A DNA stretch of 64,000 bases. Origin: a bacterium (GTDB taxonomy: Bacteria; Verrucomicrobiota; Verrucomicrobiia; Limisphaerales; UBA8199). The DNA is taken from assembly GCA_021784555.1 (NCBI GenBank), contig JAJYHY010000003.1:1-64000 (forward strand), given 5' to 3'. Below are positions 14,389 through 25,540 of the stretch, one piece after another (positions within the stretch are counted from its first letter, which is position 1; each line of letters begins with the position of its first letter). The notes beneath the pieces were generated by a model. It saw nothing but the letters and a program-made list of their open reading frames with translations, was not told the origin of the DNA and did not search any database. A program made the position numbers and the translations under genes.

Positions 14389-14404
14389 GTGGCTTTTCGG
14401 CATG

Positions 14405-14466
14405 CCTCATTAAGCATTGGGCATTTCGCATTATTCATTGGCAATGCCCAATGCCTAATGCCCAAT
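14405..14466 (+). repeat. Dispersed element A, short copy of the palindromic core
   Basis: Contains gcattgggcattt and its complement around a small loop, as in the cores of the copies at 2010-2220 and 20674-20884. The flanking parts of the long element are missing. Confidence 0.7.
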
Positions 14467-14501
14467 CAAAGCCCAAGTGCGCGCCTCTCCGGGGCCTTCG
14501 G

Positions 14502-14612: not shown

Positions 14613-14767
14613 GAGAACGTTGAGTATTGTCGCGTGGCCCTCCGGGAGAAAGGCATGGCTCTGGTTCGAGCCAGCGAGACCTCAATCGTAAATCGTAAGT
14701 TAATCAATGACCTCAATCGCAAATCGCAAATTAGTCGATGCCTGACCATTTCCAAACCGAGACCCAA

Positions 14768-15811
14768 ATGAACACTCCCAACACTCTTATCGGACCCCAA
14801 CCTCAGTCGGATGCCACCTCTGCCATCGCGGTGGAACGCCAGGTCGTCGAACGTCTCACCGCGGGCCGCGCGCAGATTGAGGCCGAATTGGCCAAGGTCA
14901 TCGTGGGCCAGAGAGATGTCATTGAGCAGATTCTTATTGCCCTCTTTGCGGGGGGCCATTGCCTGATTACCGGCGCGCCGGGTTTGGCCAAGACCCTGCT
15001 GGTGAAGTCCATCGCGCAGATCTTTCACCTGAAGTTCCAGCGCATCCAGTTTACTCCCGACCTCATGCCGGCGGACATCACTGGAACCGAGATCCTGCAG
15101 GAGAGTCCCGAAGGCCGGAAGCTGACCTTCGTGCGCGGCCCCATTTTCGCCAACATGATTCTGGCCGATGAAATCAACCGCACTCCGCCCAAAACCCAGG
15201 CGGCCCTGCTGGAGGCAATGCAGGAGCACCAGGTGACCGCCGCCGGAATTCGCCATGCGCTGGAGGAGCCGTTTTTTGTTTTGGCGACGCAAAACCCCAT
15301 CGAGATGGAGGGAACCTATCCCTTGCCGGAGGCGCAATTGGACCGGTTTATGTTCAATGTGGTGATGGACTACTTGCCCGAGGAGGAGGAGGTGGCCGTC
15401 GTCACTCGCACGACTTCCTCAAAGCCCGCGGCGATTGAACCGCTATTCACAGGCCAGGACGTGCTGGGGTTCCATGAAATGGTCCGGAAGGTCCCCATCG
15501 CCGACGAGATCGCCCGCTACGCCGTCAGGTTGGCGGCCGCTTCGCGCCCCCACCAACCGGCCGCGCCTGATTTCATCAGCGAATGGGCCAGTTGGGGCGC
15601 CGGGACCAGGGCCGGCCAGTTCCTGGTATTGGGGGCCAAGGCGCGCGCACTGTTCAAAGGGCGGGCGCATGTCACCATCGAGGACATCCAGACCCTGGCT
15701 TATCCAACCTTGCGCCATCGCATCCTGCTCAACTACCGGGCGGAGGCCGAAGGCGTCAAAGTCGAGCACATCACCAAGCGACTGCTCGAAACCCTCAAGC
15801 CCCCCATCTAA
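14768..15811 (+). CDS. MoxR-family AAA ATPase
   Basis: A 347-residue AAA ATPase thought to act as a chaperone for assembly of complexes, working with the vWA proteins encoded after it. Seen motifs: Walker A GAPGLAKT, Walker B ADEINRTPPKTQAALLEAMQE, sensor ATQNPIEMEGTYPLPEAQLDRF, all in normal MoxR order. The ATG at 14768 is used; an in-frame ATG at 14738 would add ten residues and neither has a clear ribosome site. It heads a six-gene operon running to 26660. Confidence 0.9.
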   Translation: MNTPNTLIGPQPQSDATSAIAVERQVVERLTAGRAQIEAELAKVIVGQRDVIEQILIALFAGGHCLITGAPGLAKTLLVKSIAQIFHLKFQRIQFTPDLMPADITGTEILQESPEGRKLTFVRGPIFANMILADEINRTPPKTQAALLEAMQEHQVTAAGIRHALEEPFFVLATQNPIEMEGTYPLPEAQLDRFMFNVVMDYLPEEEEVAVVTRTTSSKPAAIEPLFTGQDVLGFHEMVRKVPIADEIARYAVRLAAASRPHQPAAPDFISEWASWGAGTRAGQFLVLGAKARALFKGRAHVTIEDIQTLAYPTLRHRILLNYRAEAEGVKVEHITKRLLETLKPPI

Positions 15812-15822
15812 CCGCATCTCCT

Positions 15823-16791
15823 ATGACGGAAATCCGGCTTTCTCCAATTCCAGCGGCATCGCTCATCGACCCACAGACCCTGATGAGTATTCGCAATCTC
15901 GAGTTGCGGGCGCGTACGGTTGTCGAGGGCTTCTGGAGCGGCATCCATCGCAGCCCGCATCACGGCTTCTCAGTCGAGTTCAGTGAATACCGCCAATACA
16001 TGCCGGATGATGATCCGCGATACCTGGATTGGCGCGTGTTCGCCCGGACGGACCGCTACTTCATCAAGAAGTTCCAGGAGGAGACAAACCTGCGTTGCCT
16101 CCTGCTCGCGGACCAGAGCCGCTCCATGACTTTTGGCTCGCTTGCCCATTCCAAGGCCGACTACTCCGCCACGCTGGCCGCCACGCTGGCTTATTTCCTC
16201 TATCTCCAGGGCGATGCCGTCGGCCTGCTCACCTTCGACCAAGAAATCCGCGAATACCTTCCCGCGCGCCACCGCACCGGCCATCTCCGTCAACTGATGT
16301 TCGCCCTGGAGAAGCCGGGCGGCGGGCAGAGGACGGACCTCAGCGCGCCCCTGAAGCGCATCGCCGAGGTCGCCCATAAACGCGGCATGATGGTTCTCAT
16401 CTCCGATTTCCTGGCCCCGCTTGAACGTCTTGCTCCGGATCTGGCCGCCCTGGCCGCCAGCGGCCACGACCTAGTGGTGTTTCAAATCCTCGACCCCGCC
16501 GAGTGGACATTCGGCTTCGACACCCCTTCTATGTTTCAAGACGCTGAGTCGGGCCGCACACTATTCATCGACCCCGGCAGCGCGAGGAAGGCCTATCAGA
16601 GCAAACTTAAGTCTCATTGCGCCCATCTTCGCCGCACCTGCCAACAGTTGGGCGCCGCCTACCAGAGGCTCTCCACGGACCAGCCTCTGGAACTGGCCTT
16701 GTTCGATTTCCTAGCCCGGCGAATGCAGCATCGGCGGACAATAACCCGGTCCTCGGCCCACCACCGGCCAGGGGGCGCTTCGGCGAAATGA
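15823..16791 (+). CDS. DUF58 domain protein
   Basis: A 322-residue soluble protein with the DUF58 signature near residue 47 (HGFSVEFSEYRQYMPDDDPRYLDWRVFART) and a vWA-like half with DQSRSM (MIDAS, near residue 98). DUF58 proteins are regular partners of MoxR ATPases. It starts 11 bp after moxR and ends 4 bp before the next gene, consistent with one transcript. Confidence 0.9.
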   Translation: MTEIRLSPIPAASLIDPQTLMSIRNLELRARTVVEGFWSGIHRSPHHGFSVEFSEYRQYMPDDDPRYLDWRVFARTDRYFIKKFQEETNLRCLLLADQSRSMTFGSLAHSKADYSATLAATLAYFLYLQGDAVGLLTFDQEIREYLPARHRTGHLRQLMFALEKPGGGQRTDLSAPLKRIAEVAHKRGMMVLISDFLAPLERLAPDLAALAASGHDLVVFQILDPAEWTFGFDTPSMFQDAESGRTLFIDPGSARKAYQSKLKSHCAHLRRTCQQLGAAYQRLSTDQPLELALFDFLARRMQHRRTITRSSAHHRPGGASAK

Positions 16792-16795
16792 TCCT

Positions 16796-18886
16796 ATGAG
16801 CTTCCTGGCGCCACTTTTCTTGCTCGGTGGATTGGCGGTGGCCCTGCCGATCCTCTTTCACCTCATCCGCCGCACCACACGCCGCCGGACGGTGTTCAGT
16901 TCTTTGATGTTCCTGATGCCGTCCCCTCCGAGGCTCACGCGGCGGTCGCGGCTGGAGCACCTGTTGCTGCTGGCCCTCCGATGCCTGATTCTCTGTCTGT
17001 TGGCCCTGGGCTTTGCCCGTCCATTCATCAAGCGTGCCATTTCCAATTCCGCTGGCCCGGGAGCGAAGCGCACGGTTATCCTGGTCGATACCAGCGCCAG
17101 CATGCGCCGGCCCAATCTTTGGCGGGACGCCCTCGCCAAGGCCAAGGCCGCTTTAGAGAAAAGCTCACCCGAAGACCAGGTTGCGCTTTGCACCTTTGAC
17201 CGGCAGACGCACTGGTTGGTGACCCTCGACCAGTGGAACCGGACTCCGGTTGGCGAGCGCACACAATTGGCCATCGGCAAGCTGGCTGCGGTTCACCCGG
17301 GCTGGTCGGCCACACACCTGGGCGACGCCCTTATAGACGCAGCCGAACGCCTGGCTGACAGCCACACCAAACAGGTGCCCAGCCCGGGACAAATTGTGCT
17401 CATAACCGATCTCCAGGAGGGCAGCCGCCTCGGCGCCCTGCAAGGCTACGAGTGGCCGAAACATGTGAATTTATCCGTTGAACGGCTGAAGCCTCTGCCA
17501 GCCAGTGATGCCTCCATCCAATGGGTCCCCGCGTCCGGGGATTTCGCCCTCAAGTCAAGCACGAGCGTTCGTCTGCGGATTGCCAACGCCGCCGATTCCC
17601 GCCGGGAGCAGTTCAGAGTGGGTTGGGCGCCAGAGAGCGGCAGTGGATTCACAGGCAACCCGCTGGAGTTGTACGTCCCCGCGGGCCAGAGCCGTATTGT
17701 GCTTTTGCCGACCCCGACCGCGGCGCCGGTCCCGGATCGCGTCCTGCTCCAAGGCGACGACCAGGACTTCAACAACACGGTGTTCGCACTCGCGCCGGAG
17801 CGGCTAAAGCTGACTGTGCTCTATCTGGGAACGGAAGCGGCCAACGACCCGAAGCAGCCCCTGTTCTTCCTCGAACGGGCCTTTCAAGAGACGCGCCGGG
17901 AGGAAGTCAGCGTTCTGCCCCACGTTCCCTCTACGCCGCTCTCCCCAGCCCAGGTTCAGTCCGCGGACCTTATTGTGGTTACCTCGTCGCTGCCAAATAG
18001 CCTGGCCGGCGTATTGCGGCAGGAAATCATGGCGGGCAAGACCGTCCTGTTCGCTCTCCGCTCGGCATCCGATGCCCCCACTTTAGGTCAACTTCTGCAC
18101 GTGGGTGACCTCCAAATCGAAGAGGCGCATCCAAGCAACTACGCGATGTTGGCCCAAATTGATTTCCGTCATCCGCTCTTCGCGCCTTTTGCCGACCCGC
18201 CCTACAATGATTTTACCAAGATTCACTTCTGGAAATACCGGCGTATGGAGGCTTCGGCTATTCCTGGCGCCCGCGTGCTGGCCGCCTTCGATGATGGCGA
18301 CCCGGCTCTGCTCGAGGTCCCTCTCGGCAAGGGCCGGGTGCTCATTCTCACCTCGGGCTGGCAGCCGGAGGAGAGCCAGTTGGCCTTATCTTCGAAGTTC
18401 GTGCCGCTTATGTATTCGTTGCTGGAGGAAAGCGGGGCGCCACCGCCTCCGCCGCCCCAATACTTTGTCGGCGATACAATCCCTTTGAACCGGAACGGGA
18501 ACGATTCGATCGACCTTCGGACACCCGATGGCGCCCGGATATCGCTTAGTCAAAAAACGAATTTCACTGTCCTTTTACCTGGTGTCTATACCCTGAGCAC
18601 CGGCAATGCCAGGCATCACTTCGTGGTCAACCTCGACCCCGCCGAAAGCCGCCTAACCCCCATGCCGGTCGATGATTTGGAGAAACTGGGCGCACCGGTT
18701 GCGACTCAGGCGCCCTCCGTGGCCCGTGAGAAAGCGCGGAAGCTCCATCTGGAGAATGCCGAGTTGGAGGCTCGCGAGAAGTTATGGCGATGGTTTCTCA
18801 TAGCGACGATCGCCGTGCTGTTGGCTGAAACGTGGTTGGGCGGGCGGACAGCCCGAATGACGGCAAAGGAAAACGCCCCCGCTTAA
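16796..18886 (+). CDS. BatA/vWA-domain membrane protein
   Basis: A 696-residue protein. The N-terminus (LAPLFLLGGLAVALPILFHLIRR, then a second helix about residues 58-75) is the BatA N-terminal membrane domain. A vWA domain follows with a MIDAS motif DTSASM near residue 100. A later part looks like the glutamine-amidotransferase-type domain often joined to these proteins. A last helix (WFLIATIAVLLAETWLGG) anchors the C-terminus. The fourth-step partner in the operon is DUF4175. Confidence 0.8.
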   Translation: MSFLAPLFLLGGLAVALPILFHLIRRTTRRRTVFSSLMFLMPSPPRLTRRSRLEHLLLLALRCLILCLLALGFARPFIKRAISNSAGPGAKRTVILVDTSASMRRPNLWRDALAKAKAALEKSSPEDQVALCTFDRQTHWLVTLDQWNRTPVGERTQLAIGKLAAVHPGWSATHLGDALIDAAERLADSHTKQVPSPGQIVLITDLQEGSRLGALQGYEWPKHVNLSVERLKPLPASDASIQWVPASGDFALKSSTSVRLRIANAADSRREQFRVGWAPESGSGFTGNPLELYVPAGQSRIVLLPTPTAAPVPDRVLLQGDDQDFNNTVFALAPERLKLTVLYLGTEAANDPKQPLFFLERAFQETRREEVSVLPHVPSTPLSPAQVQSADLIVVTSSLPNSLAGVLRQEIMAGKTVLFALRSASDAPTLGQLLHVGDLQIEEAHPSNYAMLAQIDFRHPLFAPFADPPYNDFTKIHFWKYRRMEASAIPGARVLAAFDDGDPALLEVPLGKGRVLILTSGWQPEESQLALSSKFVPLMYSLLEESGAPPPPPPQYFVGDTIPLNRNGNDSIDLRTPDGARISLSQKTNFTVLLPGVYTLSTGNARHHFVVNLDPAESRLTPMPVDDLEKLGAPVATQAPSVAREKARKLHLENAELEAREKLWRWFLIATIAVLLAETWLGGRTARMTAKENAPA

Positions 18887-18908: not shown

Positions 18909-21900
18909 ATGCCTATTGATCCTCATCTCAAAGCGCAGCTCGACGAGGTCGCAGCCTGCCGGAGCCGGCTTCAGTTTTGGTGCAAACTAGCCGTTGGCTG
19001 GGCGGCGGCCGCGGCGGTTGGACTCGCCCTGCTCGAGATTGAGCGAGCAAGCGGCTTGGCTTCCTCACTCTCATTGCCCGTCATCGCGGCTCTGGGTATT
19101 GGAACCATTGCGGTCTTGATTATTCGGCATCATTCGAGGCAGCCCGATGCGGCATCGCTCATCATCGAGTTGGAACGGCGCTTTCCCCAGCTCGATGGGC
19201 GGCTTCTTACCGCCGCTCAGCAAAGCCGCACCGAGGGCGCCGAACTGGGATTCCTCCAGGAGCGGTTGCTCAAAGAAACCCTGGAGCACAGCCGTCGATA
19301 CGACTGGGCGGGCCTGATTCCGGAATCGCGCGTAGCCTTCGGGCGGATGGCGCATTGGGCAGCTTTGTGCCTGTTTGGTCTCGTCCTGTGGGGCCTGCGC
19401 ACGCCCGGCACACGTGCCCTGCTGATCCGCAACTTTGTGTCGGGCGTCACCGTCACGCCTGGCGATGCCAACCTGGAGCGCGGGGACACGTTGGTTGTGC
19501 TCGCCCGGTTCAAGGGCCCGCTGCCGGCGACGGTGAACCTGGTTATCGACTCGGCCACCGGCGGACCGGGGCATCCGCGCTCCAATGCGCGTATCCCCTT
19601 GGTCAAGAGCCTGGCGGACCCCATGTTCGGCGGCAGCGTCCCGGAAGTGACGACTAATTTCGAGTATTACATCGCTTATGCCGGCGGGCGCACCCGCGAC
19701 TTCAAAGTCACTGTCTTCGAGTATCCGCGTTTGGAGCGGGCCGATGCCAGCCTCCTCTTCCCAGCCTACACCCGTGAAAAGCCAAAACACATTGAGGATA
19801 CGCTCCGCGTGACGGCAGTGGAAGGTTCGCGGCTGGACCTGGCGCTTCACCTCAACAAGCCCGTTCGCACCGCGAACCTCCTGAGCACCGACAAGCAGGC
19901 CGAAACCATTCCTCTCAAGGTCGAGCCGAATCGGCCTGAGGCTTCACTCGGCGGCTTTGTCCTCGGCCACAGTGCCACCTATAACCTGGAACTCGTAGAT
20001 GCCAAGGGCCGGACCAACAAGGTCCCTTCCCAGTTCGTTTTCAGTGTCCTCACCAATCGCACACCGGAACTGGTCCTAACTGCTCCGCGAGGTGACATGC
20101 GTCCCTCTCCTCTCCAGGAGATCACGTTTCGAGGAACCGTCTGGGACGATTTTGGGGTATTGGCCTACGGGCTGGGCTATTGCCAGGCAGGCAAAGACCC
20201 GGTGCTGGTGACCTTGGGCAAGAATGTCCCCGCCAAACAAAAGCGCAACTTCCATTACCTCTTACGTCTCGAACAGCTCCATGTCCAGCCCGACCAGCTT
20301 GTCTCCTGGTTTGCCTGGGCCGACGACCTTGGACCGGATGGCCGGCCACGCCATACCACCGGTGACCTGTTCTTTGGAGAGATCCGCCCCTTCGATGAAG
20401 TGTTCCGTGAGGGACAAGGGATGGCCGGAGGCTCGCAGCAGGGCGCGGGTGGGCAGCGGAGTGGCGGCCCCGCTCAAAGATTGGCGGAGCTGCAAAAGCA
20501 GATTATCAACGCGACCTGGAATATCCAGCGCGCCGCGAATGGGATACGTTCCTCTACGCCAGGAGGCGGTTCGCGGTCCGAGCAACCAACTCCGAAGCCG
20601 GGGAAGGAACAGAGTTCTCACCAAGGAGAATCCAGTGTGTGGAAACCGGGACCGATGCCGGTCGGGGGGTCTGGAGTCCTTGAGTCGCAAAACATGTTGC
20701 AGGCGAGCCAGGCTTTGCTGCGTGTGCGGCGAGGGCGAAGCGCTATGCATCTGAGGCGCGCACAGCGGCATTTCTCATTAAGCATTGGGCATTTACCATT
20801 ATTCATTGGCAATGCCAAATGCACAATGCCTAATGCCCAATGCTCAATGAGATGGGAGAACCGGTCAGAGGTCCGCCTCGCTAGGACAGGATTCCGCGGG
20901 TGGCTCGTACACCACGCAAACGAAGGAAACGAAGAGTCGTCGCGCGCGCCCCAGGCTGGCTTCTGGGCGTCGGCCGTCTTTGGCCAAATTGGGCCGCAGT
21001 CCTCCGGCCCTGAGCCTCACCCACAGCCCGCCCCCCCTTCGCACCCGCACGTCGCCGTCACTGGCGCGCCTGCCAACTATCTCAGTGATTTGGCAGTCGT
21101 GCGCCAGGCCCTGGAGCAAGCGATCCAGCAAGCCCAGGCGGCCTCCGCTCGCCAACAGGACCCTAGGACCTCACCGATTTGGAGCCAGACCCTCAAGGAC
21201 ATGCGCTCGGCTCTGGAGCGGATGAAAGAGGCCTCGCAATCTTCCGCCCCGCTCTCCGAGGCCCTGGATGCCGAACAGGCCGCCTACCAATGCCTGCTGA
21301 TGCTTCAGCAGCATGAATACCAGGTGTCGCTGGGCCGGCGGCAATCGGGAGGCCAGGGCAGCGGTGGCCGGAGTCGGCAGATGCAGCTTGAACTGGATCA
21401 GATGGACCTGACCCAATCCCAGAACCGATACGAGACCCAGAGCCAGGCGCAGGCGCCGGTCTCCTCCCAGGGTCGGGAGCAGTTGGAGATCAGCGCCCGG
21501 CTTCAGGAATTGGCCCGCCGCCAGCAGGACCTCAATGACCGGCTCAAAGAATTGCAGAGCGCGCTGGAGCAGGCCCGCACCGAGGAAGAGCGGGCTGAAA
21601 TCCGGCGCCGTCTCAAACGGCTCGAAGAGGACGAACAGAAGATGCTGTCGAGTGTCGATGCCCTGCGCCAGCGAATGGACAGCCCCCAAAACCAGTCAAG
21701 CATGACCCAGGAGCGCCTTCAACTGGATCAGACCCGCCAGGATGTTCTGCGCGCCTCCCAAGCCGCGGCCCAGGGAGAGGTATCTCAGGCCCTGGCCTCC
21801 GGCACCCGTGCCCAACGTCAGTTGCGGCAAGTCCAGGACGAGATGCGGCGAAAGAGCTCCAGCCAATTTGCTCAGGATTTGCGCCAGATGCGGGAGCAGG

Positions 21901-23171
21901 CCCGCGAACTTGCCAGTCGCCAAAACGAAATCCTCAAGGATATGACCGACAATTCCGATACCGGGCGTAAGAGCCTTTCGGAATCGCCCGAGCGCCAAAG
22001 AGCGAGTGAATTGCTCGCCGGCCAAAACCATCTCATGACCAATCTAATCGAGCGCGCCAGTCGGGTTTCCGAGCAGGCCGAGGCCACGGAACCCCTCCTC
22101 TCGCGCCAACTCTACGATACAGTTCGCAAATTCAGCCAGGGCAGCGCCCAGAATGTCCAGGACATCCAAAATCAACTGCTCAGCCAAGGGATGATGACTC
22201 GCGGCCTCTACGACAAGCTAAGAGACAAGTCCGAGCAGCCTGCCCCAAAAGTCATGGACCTGACCTCCGAGCTCTTGCGCCTGGGTTTTGTGCCCCAGGC
22301 GACCGATGCGGCTCAGCGTGCCCGTGACAACCTCAACCGGTTGAAACAAGGTGTCGAACAGGCCGCATCGAGCGTTCTGGGCAACGATTCAGACGCTCTC
22401 CGCCTGGCTCAACAGGAGCTTAACGATCTTGCCAGCCAGGTGCAGCGCGAAATCGCCCAGGGCCAGGGCGGAGCCGCCCAAACCAACCGGCAGGCCTCCC
22501 CTTCGGGCGAGGAGGGAACCGCTCAGAACCCTGGCGGGATATCCACTAACAGCCCGCAGGCACAGCTTGCCCGTTCCTCCCGGCAAGCCGCCCAATCGCC
22601 CCGAGGCCCACGGCAAAGCTCGGCAAGCAGCCGTTCAGGCGATCAGAACGCGGACCAACTCGCTTCATCCAATCGCAACAATCAGCCCAACGGCGGCGCG
22701 CGCCGTGCCGGCGGACAGGGCGCCAGGCGGCTCAGTTCGCTGACGGCGGGCGGCGCCGCCGGAGGCGGGGAGGGCGGCAACCTGACGCGCGAGGTGGAGA
22801 CCTTGTTGAACCGGGGCGGAGAATGGCTTTCCGGCCCGATTACGGGCAATGATTTCGTCCCGTGGTCGGAGCGCCTGCGTGACGTGGAGGACATGGTCGA
22901 TGACCCCGCCTTGCGAAACGAACTGGCCGCGGTGCGCCAACGGGCGTTGGTTTTGCGCCGCGAGTATCAGAAGGCGGCCAGGAAGCCGGATTGGGCAGTG
23001 GTGCGCTTGCGGGTCCTGAATCCACTGGTCGAAGTGCAAGAGCGCATTCGGGAGGAATTGGCGCGCCGGGCGTCCCATGAAGCGCTGGTACCCATCGACC
23101 GCGACCCGGTTCCCAGCCGTTACGCCGAGTTGGTCCAGCATTATTACGAAGAACTCGGGAAAGATAAGTGA
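18909..23171 (+). CDS. DUF4175-family protein carrying an inserted repeat element
   Basis: A 1420-residue membrane-anchored protein, long for its family. It begins with two helices (about 25-45 and 55-70), then an extracytoplasmic domain, and from about residue 700 a very long glutamine/arginine-rich coiled coil (for example RQQDLNDRLKELQSALEQAR). The conserved stretch LQKQIINATWNIQR near residue 530 is separated from the expected continuation YLSDLAVVRQALEQA by about 180 residues. Part of that spacer, residues about 589-658, is dispersed element A translated in frame. The gene therefore tolerated an insertion without a stop. The start is set by the ribosome site at 18893, and the stop overlaps the next GTG start by 4 bp. 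Confidence 0.8.
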   Translation: MPIDPHLKAQLDEVAACRSRLQFWCKLAVGWAAAAAVGLALLEIERASGLASSLSLPVIAALGIGTIAVLIIRHHSRQPDAASLIIELERRFPQLDGRLLTAAQQSRTEGAELGFLQERLLKETLEHSRRYDWAGLIPESRVAFGRMAHWAALCLFGLVLWGLRTPGTRALLIRNFVSGVTVTPGDANLERGDTLVVLARFKGPLPATVNLVIDSATGGPGHPRSNARIPLVKSLADPMFGGSVPEVTTNFEYYIAYAGGRTRDFKVTVFEYPRLERADASLLFPAYTREKPKHIEDTLRVTAVEGSRLDLALHLNKPVRTANLLSTDKQAETIPLKVEPNRPEASLGGFVLGHSATYNLELVDAKGRTNKVPSQFVFSVLTNRTPELVLTAPRGDMRPSPLQEITFRGTVWDDFGVLAYGLGYCQAGKDPVLVTLGKNVPAKQKRNFHYLLRLEQLHVQPDQLVSWFAWADDLGPDGRPRHTTGDLFFGEIRPFDEVFREGQGMAGGSQQGAGGQRSGGPAQRLAELQKQIINATWNIQRAANGIRSSTPGGGSRSEQPTPKPGKEQSSHQGESSVWKPGPMPVGGSGVLESQNMLQASQALLRVRRGRSAMHLRRAQRHFSLSIGHLPLFIGNAKCTMPNAQCSMRWENRSEVRLARTGFRGWLVHHANEGNEESSRAPQAGFWASAVFGQIGPQSSGPEPHPQPAPPSHPHVAVTGAPANYLSDLAVVRQALEQAIQQAQAASARQQDPRTSPIWSQTLKDMRSALERMKEASQSSAPLSEALDAEQAAYQCLLMLQQHEYQVSLGRRQSGGQGSGGRSRQMQLELDQMDLTQSQNRYETQSQAQAPVSSQGREQLEISARLQELARRQQDLNDRLKELQSALEQARTEEERAEIRRRLKRLEEDEQKMLSSVDALRQRMDSPQNQSSMTQERLQLDQTRQDVLRASQAAAQGEVSQALASGTRAQRQLRQVQDEMRRKSSSQFAQDLRQMREQARELASRQNEILKDMTDNSDTGRKSLSESPERQRASELLAGQNHLMTNLIERASRVSEQAEATEPLLSRQLYDTVRKFSQGSAQNVQDIQNQLLSQGMMTRGLYDKLRDKSEQPAPKVMDLTSELLRLGFVPQATDAAQRARDNLNRLKQGVEQAASSVLGNDSDALRLAQQELNDLASQVQREIAQGQGGAAQTNRQASPSGEEGTAQNPGGISTNSPQAQLARSSRQAAQSPRGPRQSSASSRSGDQNADQLASSNRNNQPNGGARRAGGQGARRLSSLTAGGAAGGGEGGNLTREVETLLNRGGEWLSGPITGNDFVPWSERLRDVEDMVDDPALRNELAAVRQRALVLRREYQKAARKPDWAVVRLRVLNPLVEVQERIREELARRASHEALVPIDRDPVPSRYAELVQHYYEELGKDK
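20674..20884 (+). repeat. Dispersed element A, copy 2, inside the DUF4175 gene
   Basis: Aligns end to end with the complement of 2010-2220. The palindromic core (cattgggcatt ... aatgcccaatg) lies around 20778-20852. In this copy the reading frame is open through the element and gives the peptide block RRAQRHFSLSIGHLPLFIGN. Similarity may begin earlier, near 20628. Confidence 0.8.
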
Positions 23172-25540
23172 CCATTTCAACCATCATTTTTGCCGGGTTG
23201 AGCTGGCTTTGGCCGCTGGTGGGGGCCCTGGCGGTTGGCGCGGGGCTTGTCGCCTGGAATTATCGGGCTGGCGCTGGCGGGCCGCTCCGATGGCTCTGCG
23301 CCCTTCTGAAAATGCTGGGGCTGGGCGCCCTGTGTCTGTGCCTGCTCCGGCCACTCTGGTCAACACAGCGGGCGCGCCCGGGCTCCAACCTTTTTGCCAT
23401 TGTCGCCGACAACAGCCAGGGCATGCGCATCAAGGACCGCGGCGCATCCATCAGCCGCGGAGAATCGCTTCGCCGGCTTCTTGACCCCGAACGCGGCGCC
23501 TGGCAATCAACGCTCGAGGACAATTTCGACGTCCGCCGCTATTACTTCGATGCCCGGCTCCAATCCACCAGGGACTTTAGTGACCTCGATTTCAACGGAC
23601 GGGCCTCGGCCATTGGCTTTACCCTCCGTACCCTGGCCGAGCGGTACAAAGGCCGCCCCCTGGCCGGCATCCTGCTCCTGACCGACGGCAATGCGACCGA
23701 CCTTCAAGGGGTGCCCGATCTCCAAGGTTCGCCTCCCATTTACCCCGTAGTCAGTGGCAGCCAGGACCCGGTCAAGGACATCGCTATCCAGCAAGTCGTG
23801 ACCGAGCAGACTGAGTTCGAGGATGCGCCCGTCTCGGTTCAGGTAAATGTCTCCGCCTCCGGGTACAGGGGACAAACGATTGTGGCGCGGCTGCTTGAAA
23901 CGGACGGCAAACAGGTCGGCGAACAGCGGCTTAGAGCACGAAAAACCAATGACCAACTCGCCTTCCGTTTCCGGTTCCGGCCCGAAGCGCCCGGCCTGGT
24001 CTTCTACCGGGTGAAGGTCCGCGCTCGGAATGAGTTGGAAGCATCGAGCCGCCCGGCGGACACCCAGGAGGCAACGCTCGAAAACAATCAGGCCGTGGCC
24101 GTCATCAATCGCGGACATGGCCCCTACCGGATTCTCTATGTCTCGGGCCGGCCAAATTGGGAATTCAAGTTTCTCAACCGCGCGGCGCAGGATGACCCGC
24201 AAGTCCAGTTAGTCGCCCTGCTCCGGGTTGCCAAACGCGAGCCGAGATTCCATTTCCTCGGACGGCCGGGAGAAACGAGCAACCCGCTCTTCCGAGGGTT
24301 CGGCAATCAATCCCCTGAGGACGTCGAGCAATACGACCAGCCCGTCCTGGTCCGGCTTAACACGCGCGACCAATTTGAACTGCGCGGCGGCTTCCCGCGT
24401 ACTGCGGAAGACCTCTATCAATACAAAGCGGTTATCGTTGGCGATCTCGAGGAAGCCTTTTTTACTCCCGACCAGGCCAATCTGCTCCAGAAATATGTCT
24501 CCGAACGCGGGGGCGGATTCCTCATGCTCGGGGGCATGGAATCCTTCGAGCAAGGCAAGTACCGGAACACGCCCATTGGAGACATGCTGCCGGTCTATCT
24601 GGATCACCCTGCTCCGGTCAAATACACCGGCCCCTACCATTTCGACCTGACCCGCGAAGGACTGCTCCAGCCCTGGGCGCGGCTCAGGGACAACGAAAAG
24701 AGTGAAGAATCCCGGCTGAGTGAGATGACCCCATTCGAGGTTTTCAATCCGGTGGGCGAGCCCAGGCCCGGCGCCAGTGTCATTGGCACGGTCACCGATG
24801 CCAGCGGCCAGAAGTCGCCCGCATTGGTCGTCCAACGCTTCGGACGGGGCCGAACCGCCGCGATGATGATCGGCGATGTGTGGCGCTGGGGCTTTCACGA
24901 TGCCGCGGCGCATCGCGACATGAACAAGGCCTGGAGGCAACTGTTGCGCTGGCTGGTCACCGACGTGCCGAATCGCGTTCAACTCACGGCTCGACCTGAA
25001 CCGCGGAACCCCAACGGCGCGGTAGTCCTTCAAGTCCGCGTCATGGACCCGAAATTCCAACCGCTGGACAATGCCAATGTGCGCATCCAGGTCCAGCCGG
25101 TCCTCTCCGACGCAACCGCAGGCGTCTTGACCAACGCCATTGACCTCCGCGCCGAGGCTTCCCCCGATGAACCGGGTCTCTACACCGCAACCTATGTCCC
25201 GCGCATCGCCGGCGGCTACTGTGCCACGGCCTGGGCCACGAATTCAGCCGGCACCCCGGTCGGCAGCGCCGAGGCAGGCTGGGCAACCGATCTCGCCGCC
25301 GCGGAATTCCAGTCTCTGACACCGAACGTCGCGCTGCTGGAGGCCATCGCGCGCAAGACCGGCGGCGAAATCGTTCCCGCCACTAGGCTGAATGCCTTTG
25401 CGCGCAATCTGCCCCGGCGCCATGCCCCGGTCATGGAGGCCTGGAGCTATCCGCTTTGGCACACACCGCTCATGTTCAGTTTCGCCCTGGTTTGCTTTGT
25501 CTCCGAATGGGGCCTGCGCCGCTGGAAAGGAATGCCATGA
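23168..25540 (+). CDS. vWA/glutamine-amidotransferase-like membrane protein
   Basis: A 790-residue protein. The GTG start overlaps the preceding stop (GTGA). Two N-terminal helices (about 5-25 and 35-57) are followed by a vWA-type domain whose MIDAS-like motif reads DNSQGM rather than DxSxS. A domain of the glutamine-amidotransferase fold comes next (AVIVGDLEEAFF, then YVSERGGGFLMLGGMESF, about residues 430-460) without an evident catalytic Cys. A last helix (PLMFSFALVCFVSEWGLRR) closes it. Such proteins belong with MoxR/DUF58/BatA clusters; the function is not known. Confidence 0.8.
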   Translation: MTISTIIFAGLSWLWPLVGALAVGAGLVAWNYRAGAGGPLRWLCALLKMLGLGALCLCLLRPLWSTQRARPGSNLFAIVADNSQGMRIKDRGASISRGESLRRLLDPERGAWQSTLEDNFDVRRYYFDARLQSTRDFSDLDFNGRASAIGFTLRTLAERYKGRPLAGILLLTDGNATDLQGVPDLQGSPPIYPVVSGSQDPVKDIAIQQVVTEQTEFEDAPVSVQVNVSASGYRGQTIVARLLETDGKQVGEQRLRARKTNDQLAFRFRFRPEAPGLVFYRVKVRARNELEASSRPADTQEATLENNQAVAVINRGHGPYRILYVSGRPNWEFKFLNRAAQDDPQVQLVALLRVAKREPRFHFLGRPGETSNPLFRGFGNQSPEDVEQYDQPVLVRLNTRDQFELRGGFPRTAEDLYQYKAVIVGDLEEAFFTPDQANLLQKYVSERGGGFLMLGGMESFEQGKYRNTPIGDMLPVYLDHPAPVKYTGPYHFDLTREGLLQPWARLRDNEKSEESRLSEMTPFEVFNPVGEPRPGASVIGTVTDASGQKSPALVVQRFGRGRTAAMMIGDVWRWGFHDAAAHRDMNKAWRQLLRWLVTDVPNRVQLTARPEPRNPNGAVVLQVRVMDPKFQPLDNANVRIQVQPVLSDATAGVLTNAIDLRAEASPDEPGLYTATYVPRIAGGYCATAWATNSAGTPVGSAEAGWATDLAAAEFQSLTPNVALLEAIARKTGGEIVPATRLNAFARNLPRRHAPVMEAWSYPLWHTPLMFSFALVCFVSEWGLRRWKGMP

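Follow-up and report, generated by a model that had tools for sequence, protein, structure and literature searches.

How does a dispersed, palindromic repeat come to lie in the middle of a long bacterial gene and be read straight through, and does its presence there reflect a family adapted to life inside proteins or a single insertion that was tolerated? We addressed this question for an ORF of 1420 aa (18909-23171, + strand) within a window of 64,000 nucleotides, the whole stretch of DNA that was analysed, by searching the genome that is the source of the window (8.8 Mb in 658 contigs) and by comparing homologues from other genomes of the order. We propose that the repeat copy in this gene is very probably a non-autonomous, CTAG-ended, palindrome-cored dispersed repeat that inserted in frame at a CTAG and has been tolerated in a variable linker.

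An in-frame repeat copy in an operon gene

The host ORF follows genes for a MoxR-type AAA ATPase (14738-15811), a DUF58 protein (15583-16791 as the longest ORF, the true start probably lying downstream) and a BatA/VWA protein (16796-18886), and precedes a gene for a GATase1_like protein (23168-25540), all on the + strand. A sequence-only reading of the window had labelled the host gene DUF4175. Although the gene does sit in a MoxR-DUF58-BatA operon, the ORF returned nothing above cut-off from Pfam or NCBIfam, with DUF4175 absent up to E=1, so the label is unsupported.

The full-length copy spans 20671-20884 (+ strand), 214 nt including both terminal tetranucleotides; the 211-bp element that the sequence-only reading had placed at 20674-20884 is thus a genuine one with a different start. 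Its left tetranucleotide (20671-20674, + strand) reads CTGG here and CTAG in most copies, while the right one (20881-20884, + strand) is CTAG and lies in the same codon phase. Because the two are 210 nt apart in equal phase, the net insertion is 210 nt, or exactly 70 codons, and the ORF is open throughout the copy, as had been noted. The palindromic core (20773-20852, + strand) is built of two 35-nt arms, 20773-20807 and 20818-20852, that are 83% complementary with a longest perfect run of 13 bp; a 19-bp perfect inverted core, previously ascribed to the element, belongs to the intergenic full-length copy only (2010-2223, - strand; inverted repeat 2059-2077/2100-2118). These two copies do align end to end as claimed, in opposite orientation, over 216 bp without gaps and at 83% identity. 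The window holds, in addition, a core-only fragment of the same family (14394-14475, + strand) between a TPR/peptidase gene and the MoxR gene, with flanks that score non-coding.

Just one of the six frames of the element consensus is free of stops, and it is this frame that the gene copy uses. Compared with a leave-one-out consensus, the gene copy shows 28 differences, and other ungapped copies 22-35; with a divergence so similar to theirs there is no clear sign of a more recent insertion, and the reading frame of the host gene has remained open.

The family, its ends and its probable target

The element recurs in its own genome far beyond chance, with 79 matches at E<=0.01 (best match elsewhere, 1.5e-64). 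Pattern searches found the left arm at 38 sites, the core at 76 and the right arm at 40, and the reversed control patterns of all three found 0 sites in the genome. An iterated profile run on 80 fetched regions collected about 98 family pieces, about 30 of them full length, with lengths mostly of 200-260 nt, which bears out the earlier description of a dispersed repeat of non-coding type. Scans of the GTDB genome_contigs with the DNA pattern of the left arm and with the host protein gave no matches. Full copies start with CTAGAGTCCTTGA and finish with CCTCGCTAG, sharing the ends CTAGAGTCC...CCTCGCTAG and, at their centre, a palindrome built of CATTNGGCATT-type phrases. When the left end (CTAGAGTCCTTGA) is set against the reverse-complemented right end (CTAGCGAGG), the part in common is the palindromic CTAG only. 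CTAG stands at both ends of most copies, which is compatible either with a 4-bp target duplication or with sequence that is the element's own, and at two loci (L162 and L176) elements neighbouring head to tail have one CTAG in common. Double changes occur in 3 of 29 consensus pairs of the palindrome, too few to support selection on its structure.

Two further observations concern the family's architecture and setting. Pieces in L172, L173 and L203, together with a second piece in L158, carry the same two ends around other palindromic cores, with phrases of the ACGAATT/AATTCGT type in the first three and ATTAGCG-type phrases also among the variant cores; with such siblings, identical at their ends and different in their cores, the core looks exchangeable within constant ends. 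At another locus (L130; G000:C370:11700-19353), three copies, all oriented alike, occupy the spaces between consecutive type II secretion pseudopilin-like genes in a single operon.

To place copies relative to genes, we used a codon-usage gene caller trained on the long ORFs of the window, which identified the correct frame for 96% of test pieces 240 bases long. The search for further copies inside and outside genes that the sequence-only reading had proposed proved productive: among the 64 best-scored copies, 62 are intergenic, and one clear and one ambiguous copy span an ORF. In nine genes the stop codon coincides precisely with the TAG at an element's end (four lie upstream of the element, five downstream on the opposite strand), and since the terminal (C)TAG furnishes their stop, insertion apparently occurs at CTAG. 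In the same regions, the CTAG sites that lie outside elements comprise 62 in genes, 57 between genes and 12 at gene stops. Were sites chosen at random, 47% of insertions would be expected in genes, as against at most 2 of 56 observed (P=3e-13); in numbers of gene insertions, about 48 are expected under random CTAG targeting and one or two are seen. The ratio in which insertions use stop-codon and intergenic CTAG sites is not different from background. From these counts we infer CTAG to be the element's target and insertions into genes to be purged.

Could the family instead be a protein-friendly one, comparable to the Rickettsia palindromic elements, with insertion into genes as a normal step in its life cycle and selection therefore preserving its one open frame? 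None of the 13 ungapped copies has a stop in frame 0, where unique changes that create a stop number 0 against an expectation of 5.0 (P=0.003, a value that includes the gene copy among the 13 and counts each change once, ignoring any further shared ancestry), and the other five frames show no such deficit; furthermore, the 210-nt net insertion is divisible by three. A second, partial copy lies between genes for an ABC-transporter permease and an NHL-repeat lipoprotein (L153:1713-4553; G000:C399), with no stop between the two, so that permease, element and lipoprotein form one continuous frame of 947 aa, an apparent fusion through the element. Against this, substitutions are spread evenly over the codon positions (122, 108 and 113), a lack of bias on which amino-acid-level selection on the element was rejected, and many, perhaps most, indel-bearing copies have frameshifts or stops. 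The intergenic position of nearly all copies counts against it too, as does the tally of gene insertions in an open configuration, of which about 9 would be expected from random CTAG choice and one is clear, with one or two at most. We therefore regard a protein-friendly family as unlikely. The weak depletion of stop codons leaves room for selection for translatability as a hint only; the earlier suggestion that the element's sequence tolerates translation is true of the gene copy, and the evidence that the family is selected for it is weak, given its even codon positions and its broken indel copies.

A linker of variable length between two modules

Of 58 relatives, 33 yielded a homologue of the host gene, as did 54 of 116 genomes of the order. 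Identity to the closest relatives is 49-56% on either side of the insert, and similarity to the host protein breaks at about residues 545 and 720. These breaks delimit a linker of variable length (20556-21068, + strand; about residues 550-720) that holds the element, is nearly absent in many homologues and forms a gene boundary in others; its length variation suggests that it may be disordered. The closest homologues (G036, G001, G003, G018, G058, G075 and G105) have a long linker without this element, and relatives in other genera likewise lack the insert residues, an outcome that favours the earlier reading in the homologue comparison it had put forward. At least nine relatives encode the halves as two ORFs, divided at the linker. 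Eleven loci with the homologue as two ORFs, split or overlapping there, are L237-L246 and L249 (from G037, G025, G054, G109, G116, G071, G120, G059, G090, G087 and G041). As relatives encode the halves separately, the insert sits at a module junction; insertion between conserved blocks, as originally described, is correct but understates the case.

That arrangement raises the possibility that the host gene, too, works as two genes, with the element at the boundary and the halves made separately. The relatives with two ORFs speak for it, as do G041 and G087, in which the second ORF opens with a signal-peptide-like stretch (judged by eye), and the L153 element that fuses two neighbouring genes into one frame. 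However, no stop interrupts the 1420 codons of the host ORF, and all seven of the close relatives named above have a single long ORF that is free of the element, which makes a split gene very unlikely. It is scarcely credible that the repeat was misplaced inside the gene during assembly: the assembly is fragmented and several copies lie at contig ends, but the gene copy, with its 28 differences from consensus, duplicates no other copy, phase is kept on both sides and the host contig is 68.7 kb long.

A second lineage has filled the same linker. In G036, from another family of the order, the homologue is open over 1422 codons and its linker (G036:C53:158354-158766; L250/L032) contains two distinct families of dispersed palindromic repeats, unrelated to the element and translated in frame, pieces of which turn up throughout the G036 genome (80 matches, 227 first-look candidates). 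Further repeat insertions were rejected for G001, G003 and G018, whose linkers are single-copy DNA, and the linkers of G058, G075 and G105 showed no multi-copy repeat, just weak short matches; dispersed repeats are thus present in two of eight long linkers. The G075 linker does encode RSEVRL, a stretch also present at the element copy's right end, in single-copy DNA at a similar position (L248:1864-1888; nhmmer E=2.1), which could be a remnant of a shared insertion or chance. A variable linker at a module junction, filled in G036 by unrelated repeats, points to a tolerated landing rather than to an essential domain.

We thus favour a tolerated insertion, for which the following course may be envisaged. 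An enzyme supplied in trans would mobilise the family, inserting it at CTAG and leaving CTAG at each end, whereby genes whose stop is (C)TAG would stay intact. Y1 transposases were rejected as this mobiliser, as none of the 18 Y1-transposase loci checked carried the element ends. The copy studied here would have landed at a CTAG in the NCT-AGN phase and in the single orientation with a stop-free reading frame, so adding exactly 70 codons, and would have persisted because it fell in a variable linker between modules that relatives also encode separately. Most likely, the extra residues act as a passive spacer. In two lineages, this one linker has received unrelated repeat families; a broader proposition, rather improbable in our view, is that a CTAG-targeting family is kept stop-free in one frame, such that gene insertions in NCT-AGN phase are translated and inter-module linkers serve as recurrent landing zones.

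Relation to known repeat families

The element is short, non-coding, multi-copy and without a transposase of its own, with about 98 pieces and 30 full-length copies, and in these respects resembles a MITE, to which it had been likened. Its left and right ends, however, are not inverted repeats of each other, sharing the palindromic CTAG alone, so that the strict definition does not apply. GTAG-tagged REPs are palindromic, tetranucleotide-tagged repeats of 20-40 bp that lie near gene ends and are moved by RAYT transposases; their termini often give flanking ORFs their TAG stop, and some lie within ORFs (PMC3733652). The present family likewise combines a palindrome with tetranucleotide ends and supplies TAG stops to neighbouring genes, but it is 210 bp long, has CTAG rather than a GTAG tag at both ends, and shows no element end near the 18 Y1 transposase loci, in place of a RAYT association.

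Rickettsia palindromic elements (RPEs) are short palindromic dispersed repeats that occur within genes, where they are read in frame and lengthen the product by tens of residues, and in R. conorii nearly half of them are in ORFs (PMC10969869). The likeness lies in a palindromic repeat, here with 35-nt arms and one open frame of six, that is read in frame without a stop. The differences are sequence, ends and frequency: frequent in-frame residence in protein genes was not found among our 64 copies, of which one or two span an ORF. Enterobacterial ERIC and RU-1, RU-2 and RU-3 repeats are intergenic, MITE-like elements 103-168 bp long; they contain ORFs, and now and then one is joined in frame to a gene at a position outside its conserved domains, the RU fusions being mainly C-terminal (PMC2759123). 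Our family is similarly a mostly intergenic repeat with an occasional in-frame fusion, but differs in sequence and in that the fusion lies in an internal linker.

In-frame repeat insertion is therefore an already known kind of event, with RPEs, ERIC and GTAG-REPs as direct precedents, and the insertion described here is an ordinary tolerated one in a permissive linker. What is new is a family that differs from these precedents in sequence, ends and rarity in genes. It is a clean example of mobile repeats lengthening bacterial proteins, with a target rule, CTAG, under which genes that stop at (C)TAG are left unharmed, and with a measure of how efficiently insertions into genes are lost. One copy has survived, in a linker that different repeats occupy in a second lineage, and the case provides a testable account of the places in which such insertions can persist.
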